This document shows, piece by piece, positions 34,352 through 59,741 of a DNA stretch of 64,000 nucleotides. The notes beneath the pieces were generated by a model that searched no databases, was not told where the DNA came from, and worked only from the letters and a program-made list of their open reading frames with translations. Source of the DNA: an uncultured Lachnospiraceae bacterium (GTDB lineage Bacteria > Bacillota > Clostridia > Lachnospirales > Lachnospiraceae); assembly GCA_902775485.1 (NCBI GenBank), contig CACYMJ010000003.1:45258-109257 (forward strand). The letters run 5' to 3'. Position numbers and translations under genes: made by a program. Positions within the stretch are counted from its first letter, which is position 1; every line of letters begins with the position of its first letter.

Positions 34352-35686
34352 ATGGCTAATAATGAGCAAGAAAATGATGGACAGAAGGTACAAGAAGATA
34401 TGGGAATAAGTGCAGTTGGACGGAATACAATAAAACTGTGGTCAGTACAAAGCAGAGCAGTTCTGGATATGATTAAAAATAGCGGCATATATATTCCAGA
34501 CAATAGGAAAAGTTTTTTTGTCAGCGAAAATCCGGAACTTATTAAATTGTACGATTTTGTGACAGATTCATTTAATAAGGTAAATGGAACAGATTATAAA
34601 GGGTTGATCTTTTCTTTTATGTATGCGACTCCTGATCAGTCAGGAATCGGAGAATTCAGTAATTACGAAGATTTCAAATTATTTCTCATGAATATAGGCA
34701 GGAATGCTGTTGAAACCTTTTGGGAAAAGGCTGTACAAAATGATTCCGTGGTTTTTGAATTGGAGTATGAGAAGAACTTTAATCCAATATTAATCGATAT
34801 CAATGATTTTCAATTCTTGATGCCTCCCGTGCTTTTTTTTCCTCCGTATCAGCAATCAGATGTTTATGATATACAATCATGCTTAAGTATAGGGGAGTAT
34901 AGTCTGCCTGTTTTACCAAGTATGCTTGTTCAAGCGCACTCAGGATACATAAGGATGGAGAATATTGTTAATGTATACGACATTTTTGATATTGCCTCCG
35001 GAAAGCCAATAAAAAGAAAGAACAAATGGGAAGATATGGATTATGTTCTAAAACAAGCAAAACAGGATGAACGGGTGCTTGAGCATGCTGATAAAAAACT
35101 GTGGCATAAAAAAGAATTTGTAAAAGAAGCAGTTAGGATCAATGGGTTTGTTTTGAAATATGCCGTAGAAGAATTACGGGCTGACAGGGAGATTGTTTTG
35201 GAGGCTGTAAAAAATAGCGGGTGTGCAATTGCGTTTGCTGCAAAGGAAATGCAGTGGGATAAAGAAATAGTCATGGAAGCTGTAAAGCAGAGCTATGCCG
35301 CTCTCAAAGATGTGGGAGAAGCGTGGCGTGGTAATAAGGGAATTGTGCTTGAAGCTGTTAGGAGAAATGGAAAAGCATTGATGTATGCTGATGAGACCCT
35401 GAGAGACGATAAAGAAGTTGTTCTGGAGGCTGTAAAGCAGAATGGATATGCCCTGCAATATGCCGGTAAAGACTTGCTAAATGACAAAGAAACAGTGATC
35501 GAAGCTATCAAGCAGAGTCCCAGATCGTTCATGTATGCAGACACGAGACTTCACAATGATCGAAAGTTTGTATATGAGGCAATAAAGATAGGGGGCAATG
35601 AAGTGTTGACCTGCGCGAGCGATACTCTAAGAATGGATGAGGAACTTATGGCAGAGGCGAAATTGATATCAGAAAGAAAAGAATAA
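34352..35686 (+). CDS. DUF4116 repeat protein with a DUF3841-like N-terminal domain
   Basis: 444 residues. Residues ~27-210 (IKLWSVQSRAVLDMIKNSGI … VVFELEYEKNFNPILIDIND) resemble DUF3841, whose members start with a KIW-x-Q-S motif. From ~225 to the end come about eight ~24-residue repeats of the DUF4116 type (DKEVVLEAVKQNGYALQYAG, with variants), predicted to be paired helices forming a solenoid. Such repeat tails commonly mediate protein binding. No catalytic residues recognised with certainty. A weak ribosome binding site precedes ATG 34352. Function unknown; A+T-rich codon use sets it apart from core genes. Confidence 0.75.
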   Translation: MANNEQENDGQKVQEDMGISAVGRNTIKLWSVQSRAVLDMIKNSGIYIPDNRKSFFVSENPELIKLYDFVTDSFNKVNGTDYKGLIFSFMYATPDQSGIGEFSNYEDFKLFLMNIGRNAVETFWEKAVQNDSVVFELEYEKNFNPILIDINDFQFLMPPVLFFPPYQQSDVYDIQSCLSIGEYSLPVLPSMLVQAHSGYIRMENIVNVYDIFDIASGKPIKRKNKWEDMDYVLKQAKQDERVLEHADKKLWHKKEFVKEAVRINGFVLKYAVEELRADREIVLEAVKNSGCAIAFAAKEMQWDKEIVMEAVKQSYAALKDVGEAWRGNKGIVLEAVRRNGKALMYADETLRDDKEVVLEAVKQNGYALQYAGKDLLNDKETVIEAIKQSPRSFMYADTRLHNDRKFVYEAIKIGGNEVLTCASDTLRMDEELMAEAKLISERKE

Positions 35687-35726: not shown

Positions 35727-35755
35727 TTGATTTTTTAATTTGATGCCGATATAAT
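35727..35755 (+). promoter_or_regulatory. Promoter of the island RNA
   Basis: TTGATT (35727-35732), 17-bp spacer, TATAAT (35750-35755). Predicted transcript start near 35762, directly upstream of a terminator-ended structured segment. Confidence 0.75.
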
Positions 35756-35761
35756 AGGCGT

Positions 35762-35851
35762 CAGAAAATTTAAAAGAGTTGATATATGAAGCAAATGACG
35801 GAGAGCGCTATAAGTGCGCAGTTCCGGGCTTCATATATCGGCTCTTTTTTT
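35762..35851 (+). ncRNA. Candidate ~90-nt small RNA or attenuator with its own promoter and terminator
   Basis: GAGTTGATATATGAAGC (35776-35792) pairs with GCTTCATATATCGGCTC (35828-35844) along all 17 positions, counting two G-U pairs, and T7 follows (35845-35851). The 35-nt interior can fold further (GGA…TCC enclosing GCGC-TATAAGT-GCGC). The promoter at 35727-35755 places the start just before this stem, so the whole unit is one short RNA, or a terminator-type attenuator for the downstream genes. A short open frame across it (35786 onward) has no ribosome binding site and is rejected. Confidence 0.55.
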
Positions 35852-35889
35852 CGTGCCTTGCACCTTGACAAAGGCAACACGGTATATCG

Positions 35890-35974
35890 CCCTCCCGCCG
35901 GCATACGGCCATCCCGGGGAAGCATTCGCCATGACCTGCGAAAGCAGCGAGCGTGCCATGGATGCAGGGAGGGG
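35890..35974 (+). ncRNA. Structured leader upstream of the 168-residue gene, class unknown
   Basis: CCCTCCC (35890-35896) can pair with GGGAGGG (35967-35973), closing a multibranch structure: GCCG/CGGC (35897-35900/35906-35909), GCAT/ATGC (35922-35925/35962-35965), CATG/CATG (35930-35933/35957-35960) and the hairpin CTGC-GAAA-GCAG (35936-35947) with a GNRA tetraloop. The segment is much richer in G+C than the rest of the island. It sits 48 bases before ATG 36022. No match to a riboswitch class that I know. Confidence 0.45.
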
Positions 35975-36021: not shown

Positions 36022-36528
36022 ATGGGTAACAAAACAAACGTTAACTTCGTAAATCTTGACCTTAACGGTGTGGATATTTCCGGAAGGAATCCGCTTGAGA
36101 GCCTGCTCAGAAATGAGTATGCCCTCTATAAGGCAATGACTGAACAGTTTGCCTCCGTCGACTGCCGCTCGATGTGTATCGGTGTACTGGAAATGTACTT
36201 TAGCGAACTTCCTCACAGGAAGAAAAAAAACGATGACTCCAATCGTCCGGAGAAATCGCGCATTACGCAGGAGTCAACTCTTGATGCGATGCGAAAGCTC
36301 ATCAGTCGTGATGTGATCGGAAAGATCAACTTCCCGATGATGAACATCTGTCGTGTTGAAGTATGTACCATTCCTAAAGAGGATGGGAGCCACACGTTCG
36401 TGTTCTCTGACGGGATATACTCATTCACTCTTCGCCTTGAGATGGGCAAGTCCCGGCCCAGGCGCATACTGTTGACCCGCGAGGGTGATACCGATACAAT
36501 AAATATGCCGCGCGAAGGCACGGCATAG
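36022..36528 (+). CDS. Hypothetical protein, 168 aa, first gene of the helicase row
   Basis: No family recognised. Soluble, with a charged lysine-rich segment in the middle (PHRKKKNDDSNRPEKS, ~66-81) between a helical N-terminal half (LESLLRNEYALYKAMTEQFA) and a C-terminal half predicted to be mostly beta strand (ICRVEVCTIPKEDGSHTFVF, then YSFTLRLEMGKSRPRRILL). Ribosome binding site AGAGAGG precedes ATG 36022. It ends 26 bases before the giant helicase gene and shares its orientation, so it is likely to be cotranscribed and a partner of that protein. Confidence 0.65.
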   Translation: MGNKTNVNFVNLDLNGVDISGRNPLESLLRNEYALYKAMTEQFASVDCRSMCIGVLEMYFSELPHRKKKNDDSNRPEKSRITQESTLDAMRKLISRDVIGKINFPMMNICRVEVCTIPKEDGSHTFVFSDGIYSFTLRLEMGKSRPRRILLTREGDTDTINMPREGTA

Positions 36529-36554
36529 ATTGGACCGGTAGAGGAGATTTGACT

Positions 36555-39500
36555 ATGGCTGAAAAAAAAGAAAAGACAATAGTATTTGTTGATCTTGAGG
36601 TGCATAAAAGGCCGGAAAAAATATATGAGATCGGAGCCATAAAGGCGACCGTGGAATACACTCCTGAATATAAATCCATAGAGCTATGTGAACCGGATAA
36701 TAACGGTAAATTCCATCGTAAGATAGAGAATTCAACGAATTTATATGATAAGGAAGTAGATAGTATTCTGAATGACTTTTATGAATACGTCAAAAACTGT
36801 AAAGCAGACTATATCTGCGGACATAATATCATAGCTTTTGACAGTAAATATCTTGAGGAAGGAAAGAAGATAAAGGACAAGGCTGGTTATAAATATATAG
36901 ATACACTTACAATATCTCCGTTTTTGAGAGCGGAATACCCGTATCATAAACTTGAAAAGGGTTATAAATATGCTGAATTATGTAATGATCCCGTTGAGGA
37001 CGTAAAAGAGTGTCATGAACGATTAAAAGACGAAATAGAAAGGTTTCTGGAGATGAGAGATAATAAAGAGGATAAAGTTATCCTTGACATTATCGCATCT
37101 TTGCTTAAGCGCAAAGATGAATCATTCCAACCCGAATCTAAACTGGACTATGAAGAGTTATGGGAGCAGGAAAACCATTTCTTTGAATTGGTTGGGTTTA
37201 AGGTTCCTGAAGAATATGATGGTGAAGATGAAAAGATCATTAATAATATAACTGAAAAGATAATGGAACTATATCGCGGTGAGATGTGTGAATCTGCGCG
37301 TGATGCTGTAAAAGAATACGTCAAGGAAACCCCTCGAGCCCTGGGGTATTACCTGGCAAATATATTTGTTAACATGAAAATGAATAATTCGGAACAGGAT
37401 CATCACCGTCATGTATCACTTCCTCCTTATGTGGAGAGATGCTTTATGGGAATTGATGAGCTTAACCGGACGCTTAGGGGGGCGAAATGTAATAAAGACA
37501 ACTGCAGCTATTGCAAAAAGATGTTTGATACTGGTGCAGCATTACGGCGTATTTTTCCGGACAAAGAGGGATTCCTGACCATAAATGAAGATGGAAAAGA
37601 AAGAAGTCTTCAGGAAGAAGGCGTAGAACTTGCCTTAAAAAATGAAAGCATATTTGCGATTTTTCCGACCGGAGGAGGAAAATCTCTGACATTTCAAATG
37701 CCTGCGATCATGCAATGGGAACAGATGGGCGCACTGACGGTTGTAATTTCGCCGCTTCAATCGCTTATGAACGATCAGATAAAGGAATACGAAAAAAATC
37801 AAATAGGTGAAATAGTTACCATAAACGGCTCTCAAACTGACCGGGAGAGGAAAGACAGTATTGAGATGGTAAGGAGCGGCCAGGCATCCGTACTTGAGAT
37901 TTCTCCCGAAATACTCAGATCAAGGAGGATCCACGCACTTCTTCGAGCCCGGATGATCGCCAGATTTGTGATAGATGAGGCTCACTGTTTTTCAAGTTGG
38001 GGACAGGAATTTCGACCTGATTATCTGTATATAGGCAAAATACTTGAAAGGCTAAAAGAATGCAAAGGACTTAACAGTAATATTCCGGTTTCATGTTTTA
38101 CCGCTACGGCCAACGAAAACGTCATCAATGATATAAATAAATATTTTGCAAATGAAAAATGGAAATATGAACTTAAAGATTGTATGACCAAAGCGCAAAG
38201 GAATAATCTGAGCTATGAGGTTAGACTGGTAAAAACCGATGCCAAGATGACGGACAACAGAGATACGATCCGGGAAAAGTGCGAAGAAGCGAAGAAGACA
38301 GAATTACTAAATCTGCTTGATAGGATATTGAATTCTGATGAAAAGCGTCTGGATGGTTCTATAATTGTTTTTGCTGCATACACAAAGAGTACGGAAGCTC
38401 TTGCAGGTGCTATAAACGATAAATTTGGGGCTAAAACAGCGCGATTCTTTCATGGAGATTTGCCAAGGGAGGAGAAAAAAACCGCCCAGGACAGTTTTAT
38501 GAAAGGTGAATGCAAGATCATGGTATCGACGTCTGCGTTTGGAATGGGAGTTGATAAGAAGGATGTCAGATATGTGATCCATTATGACATATCTCAGTCA
38601 TTTGAGGATTACGTTCAGGAAGCCGGAAGAGCGGGCCGGGATGGCAGACCTGCAAAATGTATCATACTGTACTCGGAAGGCGACTATGATCTGGATACTA
38701 TAGACAATTTACAGAAAGTTTCCCAAATAACCTTAAGGGATATTAATACTGTCTGGAATTATATCCGTAGTATCAAAAGAAAAGAGACCGATGTTCTTAC
38801 TTCGTTTAGGGTTCTGTCATCAAAGATCAGAACAAAAAAGACTGCAAATAAGAATAAGGACAGTGCCGAAAACAAAGCGCGTGCAATAATCCAACTACTT
38901 GAAAATACCGGCTATTTAGAACGAAATGACGATATTACGCGTTCTTATTGTGTAGCTAAGAATATTAAGAATCGGGAAGAAATACTTAGCACATTGACGG
39001 ATGAGACGGATAAAGTATGGATGAACTGTATCATTGATTACATGAATGATCATCGATTTGATCCAGATTGTGTGGATATTATAAGACTTAGAAATGAGAC
39101 GGCTGTGCTTGTTGAAGGATCAAAAAAGTATGAAAAAATAAAAAATGTCTTTGAAAACAGACGAAAGGATGTCAGGTCTTTTAAAAAGCTGCTAAGACTT
39201 TTGAATGACAAATCGGCTGTGATGACGGACTCTGATGTTCGACTGTCACTGGAAACAGAAAAGACGGCTGTTGATTCAAAGCCTAACGAGATTTATGACG
39301 AAGAAAAAAGAATGTTAGACGTCCTGAAAGAAAAAAGCGGAGTCCTTGATTTTAGCAAAGATAAAGGTAAATATACCCGTAAGATCCTTATGATCTGGAG
39401 ATACGACGGATATGTGGATAAATATAACAGCCTCGAAACTCTTAAATGCAGAATGAGGCATGAGGAAGATGTCAAATGGATCGAAGAATGCATTAAGAGG

Positions 39501-42014
39501 AGGCACGAAGTTGTTAATATACTATGGAATGAAGTAGAAAAAAAGGGTGTATTAGAGTTTAAGAAAAGCGTTTTTCTTAATAACAACAGTAAATTTTCTT
39601 CGACTGATCTTGACAGTGCATTACGGTTCTTTTCGTATATGAAATTGCTTGATGTGAGGGATGAGACGCTGGTGTTTGAGAGGTCGATAAGCCTTACAGT
39701 AAAAAAAGATGAAGAGTTTAAGGAAGATGATTATTCTGATATGACGAATTACTATTCCAGAAAGGATTATCAGAAGATCATACTTAAAAAGTTTGTTGAT
39801 ATCGTAAGCGGCGAGTCTGATTCTGATTTAGAGGGATCCGCAACAAAAATGATAAGTGATTATTTTTCATGTAAATGGAATGTTTTCCTTAAGGACTATG
39901 AAATAGTAGAGGAAAAGAATAAGAGCGAAAGTAAGAAAAATGATTCATATCACTATTATAAGGGTAGAGAATTAAATGAAGAACAGATAAAAGTTGTGGA
40001 TGAGGGAGTGGGCCAAAAGGCTCATCCGATCGTTCATGTGACAGCCGGACCGGGAAGCGGAAAAACGACGGTCATGGTCAAAAAGGTCGCATCCCTTATC
40101 GGAAGAGAGGATTATGAACCTCGGGATATTCTGATATTAAGCCATACTAACGCGACAAATGATGAAATACTCTCAAGGATAGTAGATGAGGTCGGGTCCG
40201 ATGCGTACAGGATGGAGATCAGAACCTTTCATTCTTTTGCCAATGCTGTTAATGATGCTCTCGAAATGGATGAGAGGAGCACAGGACAATATGATTGTAA
40301 GTGTTTTGCTGCTTTGGCGAATAAGTTACGGGAGTCAAAAAAATCCGGGGCATATCAGGAGAATGTAATTTACAGGAAAAAAGTCCTAATACTTGATGAA
40401 GCCCAGGATCTCAATGAGTACATGTATGAGTTTATCTGCGGACTGATGGCTGTGAATTATGATGATGAAAATAACTATTTAAGGGTCATTATGGTTGCAG
40501 ATGAAAATCAGCTGATACATGATTTTCTGCGTGATGGTGATTCAGACAAAAAAAACAGAGCCAGTGCCGATAATATACAAAAACTTAAGAGAACAGATAA
40601 AAAGGGGAAAGAATTAGAAAATAAAATCAGAAGTGTTGGAGAGTACTATCTTACCTTCAACTACAGAAGTAAAGCCCGAATCGTTTATTATTCTCAGAAT
40701 TATAAAGAATACTTTATTTCGAATAAAACGGGAAAAGCTAAAGAGGAAATAGAGAAAGAGCGCATGAAGCCGATTACTGATATAAAAGGAGAGATCTACT
40801 GGTGTATTCCCCGGGAGAGCCCCATTCTTCCATGCGTAGCTGAAAGAATAGCTAAGGATGTTGATGAATGGCTGAAAACCAAACATACCACTACGTTGTC
40901 AATTGGAGTCTTGACGGATAAAAAAGACTACATGACCGATATTGCTGGTTTTATAAAAAACGCTATGAGTAAGTATGATATAGTGAAACCTCTGGAGGAA
41001 AAGGTTAAGTTTAACATTGTCAACGGGGGAGATAATTATTTCTCTATTCTTTATCTTGATGAGTTTCATGCAATAATGCGAAGGTTGGATGAAGTATCTT
41101 TCGATGACGGAACTGTTACTTCTGATATCCTGAATGAACGCTTGGAGGACTTTAAGAAGGCCTATGATAATAGCAGATACCGTGACGTGGCGATACGTTT
41201 TGTAAAAGAAATGTCTGACGAATCGGGAATAAACATTTATGAACTGAAAAACAGACTGAGTTTGATAACCTTTGATGAATTTGCAGATAAGTATTGTGAA
41301 CAGAAAGATTCGGATCCCGTATCAAAACCTATTGTTGAGATCAACCTGGTGAACATTCACAAAGCTAAGGGGGCAGAGTTTGAATGGGTATACATGTATG
41401 CTCCCAACTCAAACAGTCGCTTTAATAATATTGAAAGAATGCGATATGTTGCAATGACACGCGCAAGGGACAGACTGTGTGTATTTGAGGATAATAAGGA
41501 AAAACTGAAAAAAAAGTATGGTCCGATGATAGAGGATATAGAAGAAATAACTGTGGATAATCAAATAGCATATCGTGAGACTGATTCGGTTTGTTTTGAG
41601 ATAACAAATGGAAATCTGTGGCCAAAAGCTGATAGATGTGGATCCGGTTATGCAAATGGAGATGATCTATTTAACGAATATAATAAGCAGTTTAAGACAT
41701 ACTATACTGAAGAAGAATTTATCAGTAATAACGGATATTTTACGGATACTCCTCCTGAATATCAGGCCGGCACCTGTAAGGGATGTATTAAAGAATGGTG
41801 GCCAGGTAAGAAAAATCTATCGACTCGTCATGGGACGTTTTATGTCAATGGCATAGAAAGAGAGAACGTGAAATATTATCACGGGCCGGATAAAAAAGGC
41901 GAAGTACCGGTAAAAGCAGTATTCATTAAAGATTTTACATATAATGGAACTTATTCCAATTTTTTGAAATACGGTCAACATTATTATAAAAAGTGTATGC
42001 TCCCGGATATTTGA
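36555..42014 (+). CDS. Giant DEDD exonuclease - RecQ helicase - UvrD helicase fusion, 1819 aa
   Basis: Three nucleic-acid engines in one chain. Residues ~8-160: DEDD-type 3'-5' exonuclease (VFVDLEVHKRPEKIYEIGAI; CGHNIIAFDSKYL; final DPVEDVKECHERL). About 310-325: a Cys cluster (CNKDNCSYCKKM), perhaps metal-binding. About 350-800: RecQ-type superfamily 2 helicase with Walker A FPTGGGKSLTF (~371), FVIDEAHCFSSWGQEFRPDY (~470), FGMGVDKKDVRYVIHYD and QEAGRAGRDGRP. About 1140-1660: superfamily 1 UvrD/Rep-type helicase with TAGPGSGKTTVMV (~1164), LILDEAQDLNEY (~1280), LTFNYRSKARIV, NIHKAKGAEFEWVYMYAP and YVAMTRARDRLCVF. All nucleotide-binding motifs look intact. ATG 36555 has GAGGAG 8 bases upstream. 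It should unwind and degrade DNA; a defence or repair role is inference from its place in an A+T-rich island. Confidence 0.88.
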   Translation: MAEKKEKTIVFVDLEVHKRPEKIYEIGAIKATVEYTPEYKSIELCEPDNNGKFHRKIENSTNLYDKEVDSILNDFYEYVKNCKADYICGHNIIAFDSKYLEEGKKIKDKAGYKYIDTLTISPFLRAEYPYHKLEKGYKYAELCNDPVEDVKECHERLKDEIERFLEMRDNKEDKVILDIIASLLKRKDESFQPESKLDYEELWEQENHFFELVGFKVPEEYDGEDEKIINNITEKIMELYRGEMCESARDAVKEYVKETPRALGYYLANIFVNMKMNNSEQDHHRHVSLPPYVERCFMGIDELNRTLRGAKCNKDNCSYCKKMFDTGAALRRIFPDKEGFLTINEDGKERSLQEEGVELALKNESIFAIFPTGGGKSLTFQMPAIMQWEQMGALTVVISPLQSLMNDQIKEYEKNQIGEIVTINGSQTDRERKDSIEMVRSGQASVLEISPEILRSRRIHALLRARMIARFVIDEAHCFSSWGQEFRPDYLYIGKILERLKECKGLNSNIPVSCFTATANENVINDINKYFANEKWKYELKDCMTKAQRNNLSYEVRLVKTDAKMTDNRDTIREKCEEAKKTELLNLLDRILNSDEKRLDGSIIVFAAYTKSTEALAGAINDKFGAKTARFFHGDLPREEKKTAQDSFMKGECKIMVSTSAFGMGVDKKDVRYVIHYDISQSFEDYVQEAGRAGRDGRPAKCIILYSEGDYDLDTIDNLQKVSQITLRDINTVWNYIRSIKRKETDVLTSFRVLSSKIRTKKTANKNKDSAENKARAIIQLLENTGYLERNDDITRSYCVAKNIKNREEILSTLTDETDKVWMNCIIDYMNDHRFDPDCVDIIRLRNETAVLVEGSKKYEKIKNVFENRRKDVRSFKKLLRLLNDKSAVMTDSDVRLSLETEKTAVDSKPNEIYDEEKRMLDVLKEKSGVLDFSKDKGKYTRKILMIWRYDGYVDKYNSLETLKCRMRHEEDVKWIEECIKRRHEVVNILWNEVEKKGVLEFKKSVFLNNNSKFSSTDLDSALRFFSYMKLLDVRDETLVFERSISLTVKKDEEFKEDDYSDMTNYYSRKDYQKIILKKFVDIVSGESDSDLEGSATKMISDYFSCKWNVFLKDYEIVEEKNKSESKKNDSYHYYKGRELNEEQIKVVDEGVGQKAHPIVHVTAGPGSGKTTVMVKKVASLIGREDYEPRDILILSHTNATNDEILSRIVDEVGSDAYRMEIRTFHSFANAVNDALEMDERSTGQYDCKCFAALANKLRESKKSGAYQENVIYRKKVLILDEAQDLNEYMYEFICGLMAVNYDDENNYLRVIMVADENQLIHDFLRDGDSDKKNRASADNIQKLKRTDKKGKELENKIRSVGEYYLTFNYRSKARIVYYSQNYKEYFISNKTGKAKEEIEKERMKPITDIKGEIYWCIPRESPILPCVAERIAKDVDEWLKTKHTTTLSIGVLTDKKDYMTDIAGFIKNAMSKYDIVKPLEEKVKFNIVNGGDNYFSILYLDEFHAIMRRLDEVSFDDGTVTSDILNERLEDFKKAYDNSRYRDVAIRFVKEMSDESGINIYELKNRLSLITFDEFADKYCEQKDSDPVSKPIVEINLVNIHKAKGAEFEWVYMYAPNSNSRFNNIERMRYVAMTRARDRLCVFEDNKEKLKKKYGPMIEDIEEITVDNQIAYRETDSVCFEITNGNLWPKADRCGSGYANGDDLFNEYNKQFKTYYTEEEFISNNGYFTDTPPEYQAGTCKGCIKEWWPGKKNLSTRHGTFYVNGIERENVKYYHGPDKKGEVPVKAVFIKDFTYNGTYSNFLKYGQHYYKKCMLPDI

Positions 42015-42096
42015 ACCTTTTTATCATATAGCATTGTCTTTACCATATGATGCCGGGTGATAACGAAAACAAGAGTCGAACTGTGAAGGAGATAAT

Positions 42097-42651
42097 ATGA
42101 GCAGATTTTTTGTGAAGAATATCAGAAGTAAAAAATTGTGGGATGAGGTCGGAGACGTGTACGGCTATATGACGCTTATCGTTTCGATAGAGTACCAAAA
42201 GGACGGTGGCAATTCCGGGTGGTTAACTGTCGTTAAGGCAGACGATGCATATCTCGGAATTCCGAGCTTTTTTACGGATGATGAGGATCGATTCGAGAAG
42301 TACGTGGATCACTATGACGATTCTAAAACGTTTACAGATAAAGAAGGGGGAATACAGGCTGATCCTGACTTCAAACCGGTACGTGTTGATTCTTTCGAGG
42401 GCATCGATCTGAATTTTGATGACAGCTTTGACGAGCACGATGACATGTATTACGGTTTATATGACCGGATATTAAACAGTAAACGCGATAATGAAGCAGC
42501 TCAGTTCCTCCGGTTTGTCATTGCACTTATCACTTCCGGGGAAAATGAGGCCGATGAACTTATCGAACTTGCAAAGGACCGGTATATAGATGAAATAGAT
42601 ATTCCGGTTTGTGAAATGGAAAGAAGATATCTTAACAGGTCTGTAAATTGA
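42097..42651 (+). CDS. Hypothetical acidic protein, 184 aa, last gene of the helicase row
   Basis: No family recognised. Acidic, soluble; the N-terminal part (FFVKNIRSKKLWDEVGDVYG … LIVSIEYQKDGG) looks beta-rich. The middle is very rich in Asp (NFDDSFDEHDDMYYGLYD), and the end is helical (FLRFVIALITSGENEADELI). The ribosome binding site GAAGGAG precedes ATG 42097. It lies 82 bases after the giant helicase gene, same strand. A strongly acidic partner of a nuclease-helicase could be a DNA mimic or regulator, but that is speculation. Confidence 0.6.
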   Translation: MSRFFVKNIRSKKLWDEVGDVYGYMTLIVSIEYQKDGGNSGWLTVVKADDAYLGIPSFFTDDEDRFEKYVDHYDDSKTFTDKEGGIQADPDFKPVRVDSFEGIDLNFDDSFDEHDDMYYGLYDRILNSKRDNEAAQFLRFVIALITSGENEADELIELAKDRYIDEIDIPVCEMERRYLNRSVN

Positions 42652-42709
42652 TAATAAGATGCAGACAGGATTGATCCGAAATATTTAATGGAGATAAACA
42701 ACATATCTT

Positions 42710-42880
42710 AAGGAACTCGGATACACTGAGTGGAAACAGTTGGATAATGGCAAAAAAGCAACCATTGTGACGGATAAAGGTAAAGAGATCGGGATATTTG
42801 CGTTAAAAAGCAGTGAAAAAAGCATGCCTACTATGTATAAGGCTTTCACCTTGAATGAAAAAATACCAAAAATTTTGTGA
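42710..42880 (+). pseudogene. C-terminal remnant of an unidentified protein
   Basis: A 56-codon frame reads KELGYTEWKQLDNGKKATIV… and ends FTLNEKIPKIL before TGA 42878. It has clear protein character but no start codon; the adjacent frame upstream (DPKYLMEINNI) ends at TAA, so a frameshift probably split the gene. Marks the right end of the island, next to the histidine kinase 3' end. Confidence 0.45.
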
Positions 42881-42927
42881 GAATTATGCACCTTTCAGAG
42901 CAAGTCTGAAAAGATTTCCGAATCAGG

Positions 42928-59565: not shown

Positions 59566-59577
59566 TTTTTTGTCTCC

Positions 59578-59702
59578 TTCTTTCATCCGGACTGTACCGT
59601 CGGTTCCGGATTCATACCGGATCCACCGCACTTTATGCGGGTTGCGGACTTACAGCAGATGCTGAACACCGCCGGTCGGGAATCTCACCCTGCCTACGAA
59701 GC
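59578..59702 (-). promoter_or_regulatory. FMN riboswitch (RFN element)
   Basis: Read on the minus strand, the conserved blocks are in order: GGCAGGGTGAGATTCCCGAC, CGGCGGT, AGTCCGC, GTGGATCCGGTATGAATCCG and GACGGTACAGTCCGGATGAA. The P1 ends are CTTCG and GAAAGAAG. It lies directly in front of ribU, with the element's 3' end adjoining the ribosome binding site, so FMN probably blocks translation (or transcription) of the transporter. A TTGACA -35 on this strand is at 59740-59735. Confidence 0.95.
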
Positions 59703-59741
59703 GTCCATATAATGTTATACCTCCCTATATATAATGTCAAC

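Follow-up and report, generated by a model that had tools for sequence, protein, structure and literature searches.

The antitermination leaders of ribosomal RNA (rrn) operons contain the elements boxB, boxA and boxC in this order, according to PMC10250234, and two antiterminator RNAs, conAn of pLS20 and canT of Tn916, the latter a cis RNA of 452 nucleotides (nt), head conjugation operons (PMC8955417 and PMC11658703). Here we describe a leader that resembles them, found in a stretch of 64,000 nt from an uncultured Lachnospiraceae bacterium (contig CACYMJ010000003.1; the whole stretch is called the window below). It precedes a row of three genes, which encode a protein of 168 amino acids (aa), a large fusion of an exonuclease-like domain with RecQ-type and UvrD-type helicases, and an acidic protein of 184 aa (Table 1). 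The leader is a conserved structured RNA, apparently uncatalogued so far, which accompanies the 168-aa gene as well as genes for replication, recombinases and conjugation-like functions, and not the fusion; the fusion is a partnerless member of a widespread lone-gene family. We hold with moderate confidence that the row consists of the antitermination leader of a mobile module with its 168-aa gene, and of the fusion as a cargo whose role is the processing of DNA ends, probably directed at foreign DNA. Of all parts of the locus the leader, mentioned only in passing by the initial annotation of this DNA, is the most interesting.

Like the rrn leaders, the leader in the window presents a hairpin, a boxA-like site and a further conserved element in matching order; in contrast to them, it heads accessory or mobile genes, and its core sequence is unlike the boxC quoted in PMC10250234. 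It shares with conAn and canT the position at the start of mobile-element operons. The conAn system has a protein partner, ConAn1; in our set, a 168-aa protein is encoded behind some copies of the core and not behind others.

The closest relatives of the fusion are proteins of 1550-1900 aa annotated as RecQ family ATP-dependent DNA helicases (WP_022275194.1 on a Bacteroides finegoldii plasmid, and another on pALVIN01 of Allochromatium vinosum), in which an exonuclease-like domain, four cysteines, RecQ and UvrD follow in the same order. Identity to the best plasmid matches is 29-34%, and the window copy differs in being longer, very divergent and the only one behind the leader. As in WRN, an exonuclease-type domain precedes the RecQ core, and the RecQ part matches WRN with an expectation value (E) of 2.6e-35; in contrast to WRN, the fusion has an additional UvrD helicase and an Asn at the position of the catalytic His, and no HRDC or RecQ zinc family was found in it by Pfam. 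The DinG protein of S. aureus also joins a DEDD exonuclease to a superfamily 2 (SF2) helicase, but of the XPD type, where the fusion has RecQ and UvrD. Our literature search, with most subscription papers outside its reach, found no description of such a leader or of such a fusion.

The conserved leader RNA and the genes it precedes

The structured RNA proposed by the initial annotation was borne out by folding and by comparison. The leader folds at -46.8 kcal/mol (z -7.3, none of 200 shuffled sequences being equally stable) and contains a conserved, covarying core. Searching the genus (37 genomes) with the leader DNA revealed a 48-nt block kept in several of them, which lies ahead of a 168-aa homologue in some cases and ahead of a different gene in others; the hairpins 5' of the block differ in sequence and are alike in shape. 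Seven copies of the core share a common structure with compensatory changes. With model R1 the core was detected in 8 of 392 genomes of the order (the own genome and seven others), and with model R2 in 9 of 391 genomes of the class (the own and eight others), giving a total of 24 copies in 23 genomes, including 8 of the 37 in the genus. In an alignment of 15 copies, which had been fitted to the structure, 95.4% of the cells are paired and 8 of 14 pairs show changes in both partners; slid controls reach 0-3 such pairs and shuffled ones 3.6, with none of 500 shuffles as high; an independent consensus fold of the same alignment recovers 10 of the pairs. By reading, the internal loop of the core appears to be a K-turn.

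This covariation would fit a DNA hairpin equally well, and the core occurs in or near mobile elements, which use single-stranded DNA hairpins. That the core is a DNA site (a transfer origin, or a recombination or replication site) and RNA-like in appearance only is nevertheless very unlikely, given that its orientation is fixed relative to the downstream gene and that the boxA-like site lies at constant spacing from it.

A known RNA family for the core was considered and set aside, the core being without an Rfam match. The leader produced only six sub-threshold, chance-like Rfam matches; a scan of ten other loci gave nothing but a tmRNA, and one of four loci gave nothing at E 0.5. The sole match in the window at the Rfam gathering score is an FMN riboswitch at 59571-59704 on the minus strand (89.8 bits).

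The core lies 5' of a gene of the 168-aa family at five of eight loci, the window included; at two of the three others (G023 and G032) the contig lacks the upstream sequence. As judged by reading the translations, with no family search, 11 of the 24 copies head or just precede genes for replication, recombinases, mobilisation or VirD4-like proteins. Of the remaining copies, three precede an AAA ATPase gene, five precede only a member of the 168-aa family, and the others precede other genes or a contig end. A close copy of the leader is present in four plasmid records. In the one of these that was inspected, from Pusillibacter (L221, 6001-6280), the genes that follow include an annotated replication initiator A and a recombinase; the RNA itself is unannotated there, and the stretch is partly annotated as a coding gene for a cysteine-rich VLP protein. 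Two exact patterns retrieved no core from viral contigs. Nor was the core present at any of 84 fusion-homologue loci (1.43 Mb in total), of which 81 belong to the set of 85 with joined exonuclease and RecQ parts described below and three do not.

One contig of the set (L195, G426:C4) carries two copies of the core, at 1490 and 5650, 4.2 kb apart, one 5' of ClpP-like and VirD4-like genes and the other 5' of a 168-aa homologue.

Proposed antitermination and its alternatives

We read the leader as a processive antitermination signal because its elements follow the rrn-like order and because RNAs of conjugation operons are known antiterminators. The row would then comprise two independent things on one strand rather than a three-subunit system. 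The first would be an expression module of the mobile type, with the 168-aa gene behind a promoter, a long terminator-like hairpin, a boxA-like site and a conserved hairpin RNA that covaries; the second would be a lone-gene cargo, the fusion, with the 184-aa gene as an orphan behind it. The boxA-like site and the core may load Nus factors onto RNA polymerase, and a long A+T-rich operon would be read through by processive antitermination, as in rrn leaders, put, EAR, conAn and canT.

The pattern CCTTGAnAA, which we take to be akin to the boxA of rrn operons, is found 35-51 nt 5' of the core in 20 of 23 copies, compared with 92 of 4600 random 120-nt stretches, the pattern having been derived from some of the very copies scored. 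A strong hairpin abutting a T-run lies 5' of the core in 15 of the 24 copies. The outer stem around the core beats shuffled sequences (fraction <=0.03) in nine of the 24, the value for the window being 0.06. The promoter-like site belongs to a class that occurs at chance level in the region (29 observed, 28.2 expected).

Several observations count against this reading. In addition to the derivation of the boxA-like pattern from scored copies, a 16S gene, sought in ten genomes of the genus for comparison with rrn boxA, was found in none of them; the strong hairpin is missing at nine of the 24 core copies, and a significant outer stem at 15. Nor is the link with the 168-aa gene strict: in G034 the core is absent despite 1.2 kb available upstream of the homologue, and in G036 the core lies about 340 nt from a homologue that contains a stop.

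The frequent hairpin with its T-run would also suit an attenuator or a ligand-sensing riboswitch, in which this first hairpin is the switched terminator. We regard such a device as unlikely, since the conserved core sits 3' of the T-run and not 5' of it, and since nine copies have no strong hairpin. Moreover, the downstream genes are mutually unrelated, and the leader is therefore a poor fit to a riboswitch for one metabolite.

The fusion and its lone-gene family

The initial annotation described the fusion as a DEDD exonuclease joined to RecQ and UvrD helicases. Both helicase halves hold: their motifs are readable, and Pfam reports DEAD (9e-28), Helicase_C (5e-24) and UvrD-helicase (3e-21) above the cut-offs. 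The RecQ part belongs to the RecQ family (TIGR00614, 249 bits, cut-off 220). The housekeeping RecQ equivalog was rejected (TIGR01389, 264 bits, cut-off 640), and RecQ_Zn_bind and HRDC are not among the Pfam matches. The second helicase is of the UvrD/PcrA type of superfamily 1 (SF1; PF00580, 76.6 bits, cut-off 23; PF13361, 33.8 bits, cut-off 25.6), and its scores lie under the uvrD and pcrA equivalog cut-offs. The exonuclease part of the description holds for the acidic residues, with the qualification that the position of the catalytic histidine is N144. No exonuclease family was listed by the Pfam scan, and the assignment relies on residues kept in the homologues (D13, E15, H90, N91, D96 and D149) and on the predicted fold. 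In an alignment of 76 rows, the DEDD acidic set D13, E15, D96 and D149 is present in 75, the last one being gapped. The cysteine cluster ahead of RecQ is probably a metal site.

The AlphaFold model of residues 1-830 (mean predicted local distance difference test score, pLDDT, 79.8) retrieves solved structures of RecQ helicases, with human RECQL5 first (E 1.7e-19) and a low template modeling (TM) score over the whole query. The model of residues 1-345 (mean pLDDT 86.8) has four solved matches at E <=0.001. The first is S. aureus DinG (E 1.4e-5, TM 0.35 over the 345-residue query), and family B polymerases are among those that follow it.

The family was assembled from 112 loci: 17 from genomes of the order and plasmids (including two RecQ-only loci of the genus), 80 from genome contigs and 15 from viral contigs. 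As the scan of genome contigs took the best 80 matches, 16 of them plain RecQ, these counts are not frequencies. The exonuclease and RecQ parts occur together in 85 of the 112 loci, and the UvrD part was detected by blastp in 73 of the 85. In the 12 without a detected UvrD part, the gene is cut by a contig end in five, is full length with the UvrD part unaligned in three (L024, L130 and L149), is split into two open reading frames (ORFs) in one (L026) and ends early in three (L086, L105 and L108). By their record titles, the homologues span seven phyla. In a quick tree of 76 rows, the clades follow the phyla in part; the window copy forms a very long branch (end branch 2.61) in the half with Bacteroidota and Bacillota.

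The family is distributed very patchily. Of 391 further genomes in the order, 12 contain a match at E 1e-60, and within the genus none of the 36 other genomes, many of which are incomplete, has the full-length fusion; the gene is accessory. Plasmid records matching at E 1e-5 number 907, one of which covers more than 80% of the query, and 13 loci of the family lie on viral contigs. Among phages, the exonuclease-RecQ stretch matches 23 records, none over more than 80% of the query, and the 12 listed are RecQ only.

A self-contained anti-phage system of three genes, with the 168-aa and 184-aa proteins as subunits or regulators of the fusion, was the proposal of the initial annotation, which had itself named the absence of the small genes beside most homologues as decisive against it. 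The common strand of the genes, the gaps of 26 and 82 nt between them and the accessory nature of the insertion would agree with such a system, as would matches of the helicase parts to models of defense proteins (DpdF with 1e-82, PsyrT, C3a193 and GajB). These matches are expected of any RecQ or UvrD protein, because the helicase cores are common to all. However, neither small protein was matched by blastp among all ORFs of the 112 loci, nor was either small gene by tblastn in 17 of the loci; a small gene beneath a longer antisense ORF could escape blastp, because overlapping ORFs were removed (ORFs of at least 60 aa). Seven of the 36 other genomes of the genus contain a homologue of the 168-aa gene, none of them with a full-length fusion, and the 184-aa gene had no match in 60 other genomes searched (present in one of 61, its own). 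Beside the fusion homologues, no PADLOC family recurs in more than 2 of 112 or 2 of 114 loci, a tally by family rather than of defense genes per locus. The role of the small genes as accessory subunits thus did not survive the comparison; a system of three subunits was rejected, and the wider three-gene proposal seems to us highly doubtful. Both small proteins are indeed unrecognised, as first noted, with no match in Pfam, PADLOC, NCBIfam (E up to 1) or PHROGs (E up to 0.1).

A known defense system was likewise rejected: for the Dpd system, the NCBIfam equivalog of DpdF gives 189 bits, under its cut-off of 550.

Alternatively, the fusion may be a horizontally spread enzyme of DNA repair or recombination, a bacterial analogue of WRN-type exonuclease-helicases, with no part in defense. 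We find this quite possible. Unrelated household genes make up most of the nearest neighbors of the homologues (231 listed, 226 scanned), and the most frequent family among those scanned reaches at most 4 of 112 or 5 of 114 loci for Pfam and 2 of 112 or 2 of 114 for PADLOC. The partial agreement of clades with phyla points the same way, as do two loci from two genomes of one family, in which the fusion gene and an ordinary recQ gene are arranged head to head (L028, 6111-13048; L031, 2870-9291). On the other side stand the patchy occurrence, the copies on plasmids and viral contigs, and the variability of the insertion in the genus of the window; because the distribution is patchy and mobile, defense is a little likelier than repair.

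In our reading, the fusion would be a motor whose two 3'-5' helicases open the ends or branches of DNA, with the DEDD-like domain trimming or gripping the displaced strand, and its targets would most likely be invading or damaged DNA. Two points speak against parts of this picture. The tie of the fusion to defense is one of general patterns only. Furthermore, the catalytic His of DEDDh enzymes, which lies in the motif HxxxxD, is absent from the 76-row alignment, as is the Tyr of the DEDDy type (Asn in 71 rows, Ser in four, a gap in one), and trimming may therefore not occur; His131, near Asn144 in sequence, is invariant and may or may not stand in for the missing base.

Single loci of fusion homologues lie near defense or addiction genes (type I restriction, VapC, Cas6) and others do not, as seen without a control set. 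In another genome of the genus of the window (L035, G011:C151, 794-7163), an SF1 helicase gene, a small DEDDh-like gene and a RecQ-like gene matching C3a193 form a row beside an FtsK-type gene matching SspH. This row was considered as a split counterpart of the fusion, but the small gene scores below its Pfam cut-off, and two of the genes do not resemble the fusion in sequence. Three other loci with a relative of the RecQ-like gene did not show the triad: two plasmids have a sigma-70-like gene instead, and L222 has a weak SF1 match only. The unfused row is only a hint of a split counterpart.

The variable insertion and implications

The coordinates, lengths and common strand of the three genes given by the initial annotation are correct; a TTG 6 nt upstream of the ATG of the fusion is an alternative start and yields 1821 aa. 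The A+T-rich setting and the variable island that it postulated were also upheld. The three 2-kb blocks between 36 and 42 kb have a G+C content of 0.367-0.414, and the value at 34-36 kb is 0.397; the rest of the window lies at 0.433-0.501. In G007, the one of 18 compared stretches where both immediate flanks were found together, the same methylase and histidine-kinase genes flank a gene for a 748-aa SH3/amidase/NlpC protein unrelated to those in the window; it replaces 34-42.9 kb of the window, with no common DNA between the flanks.

Table 1. Coordinates of the leader elements, genes and fusion domains in the window
Feature	Positions	Strand	Remarks
Promoter-like site TTGATT-17-TATAAT	35727-35755	+	Consensus scan 10/12; ahead of the leader
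Long terminator-like hairpin with T-run	35772-35852	+	First leader element; z -7.3
boxA-like site CCTTGACAA	35863-35871	+	Pattern CCTTGAnAA
Outer stem around the core, 5' arm	35890-35896	+	7 pairs with 35967-35973
Conserved RNA core, hairpin with K-turn-like internal loop	35914-35961	+	R1 E 1.1e-13, R2 E 1.2e-12; covariation
Outer stem, 3' arm	35967-35973	+	Pairs with 35890-35896
168-aa gene	36022-36528	+	Genus- or family-restricted family; first gene 3' of the leader
Fusion gene, whole	36555-42014	+	1819 aa from ATG
DEDD-type exonuclease-like domain	36555-37064	+	About residues 1-170; catalytic His position is Asn144
Four conserved Cys before RecQ	37287-37514	+	245, 312, 317, 320; invariant in the 76-row alignment
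RecQ-type SF2 helicase core	37602-38696	+	Residues 350-714
UvrD-type SF1 helicase	39969-41504	+	About residues 1139-1650
184-aa acidic gene	42097-42651	+	Without known relatives

Directly 5' of the leader, in the A+T-rich stretch, a gene at 34352-35686 (plus strand) encodes a 444-aa protein with seven DUF4116 repeats and a match to a phage family (5.9e-33). Between the 184-aa and kinase genes, at about 42700-42881, a short open stretch resembles by eye the 3' end of a lost gene.

Extending the antitermination reading beyond this locus, we tentatively propose that the leader represents a new class of processive antitermination RNAs, combining a boxA-like site with a K-turn-like core, in elements of the integrative, mobilisable and conjugative kinds throughout a class that, to judge by named plasmid and genome relatives, is probably Clostridia, with the 168-aa protein as a possible optional partner and the fusion as a possible anti-invader enzyme carried as cargo. 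If this is true, mobile elements of the class would share a compact RNA leader that makes the polymerase ignore terminators, which would account for the expression of long foreign operons, and the leader would serve as a marker for the starts of mobile operons and for their cargo. Biochemistry has a clear target in the fusion family, whose members occur in seven phyla behind an uninformative RecQ annotation and carry an altered active site in the exonuclease part.

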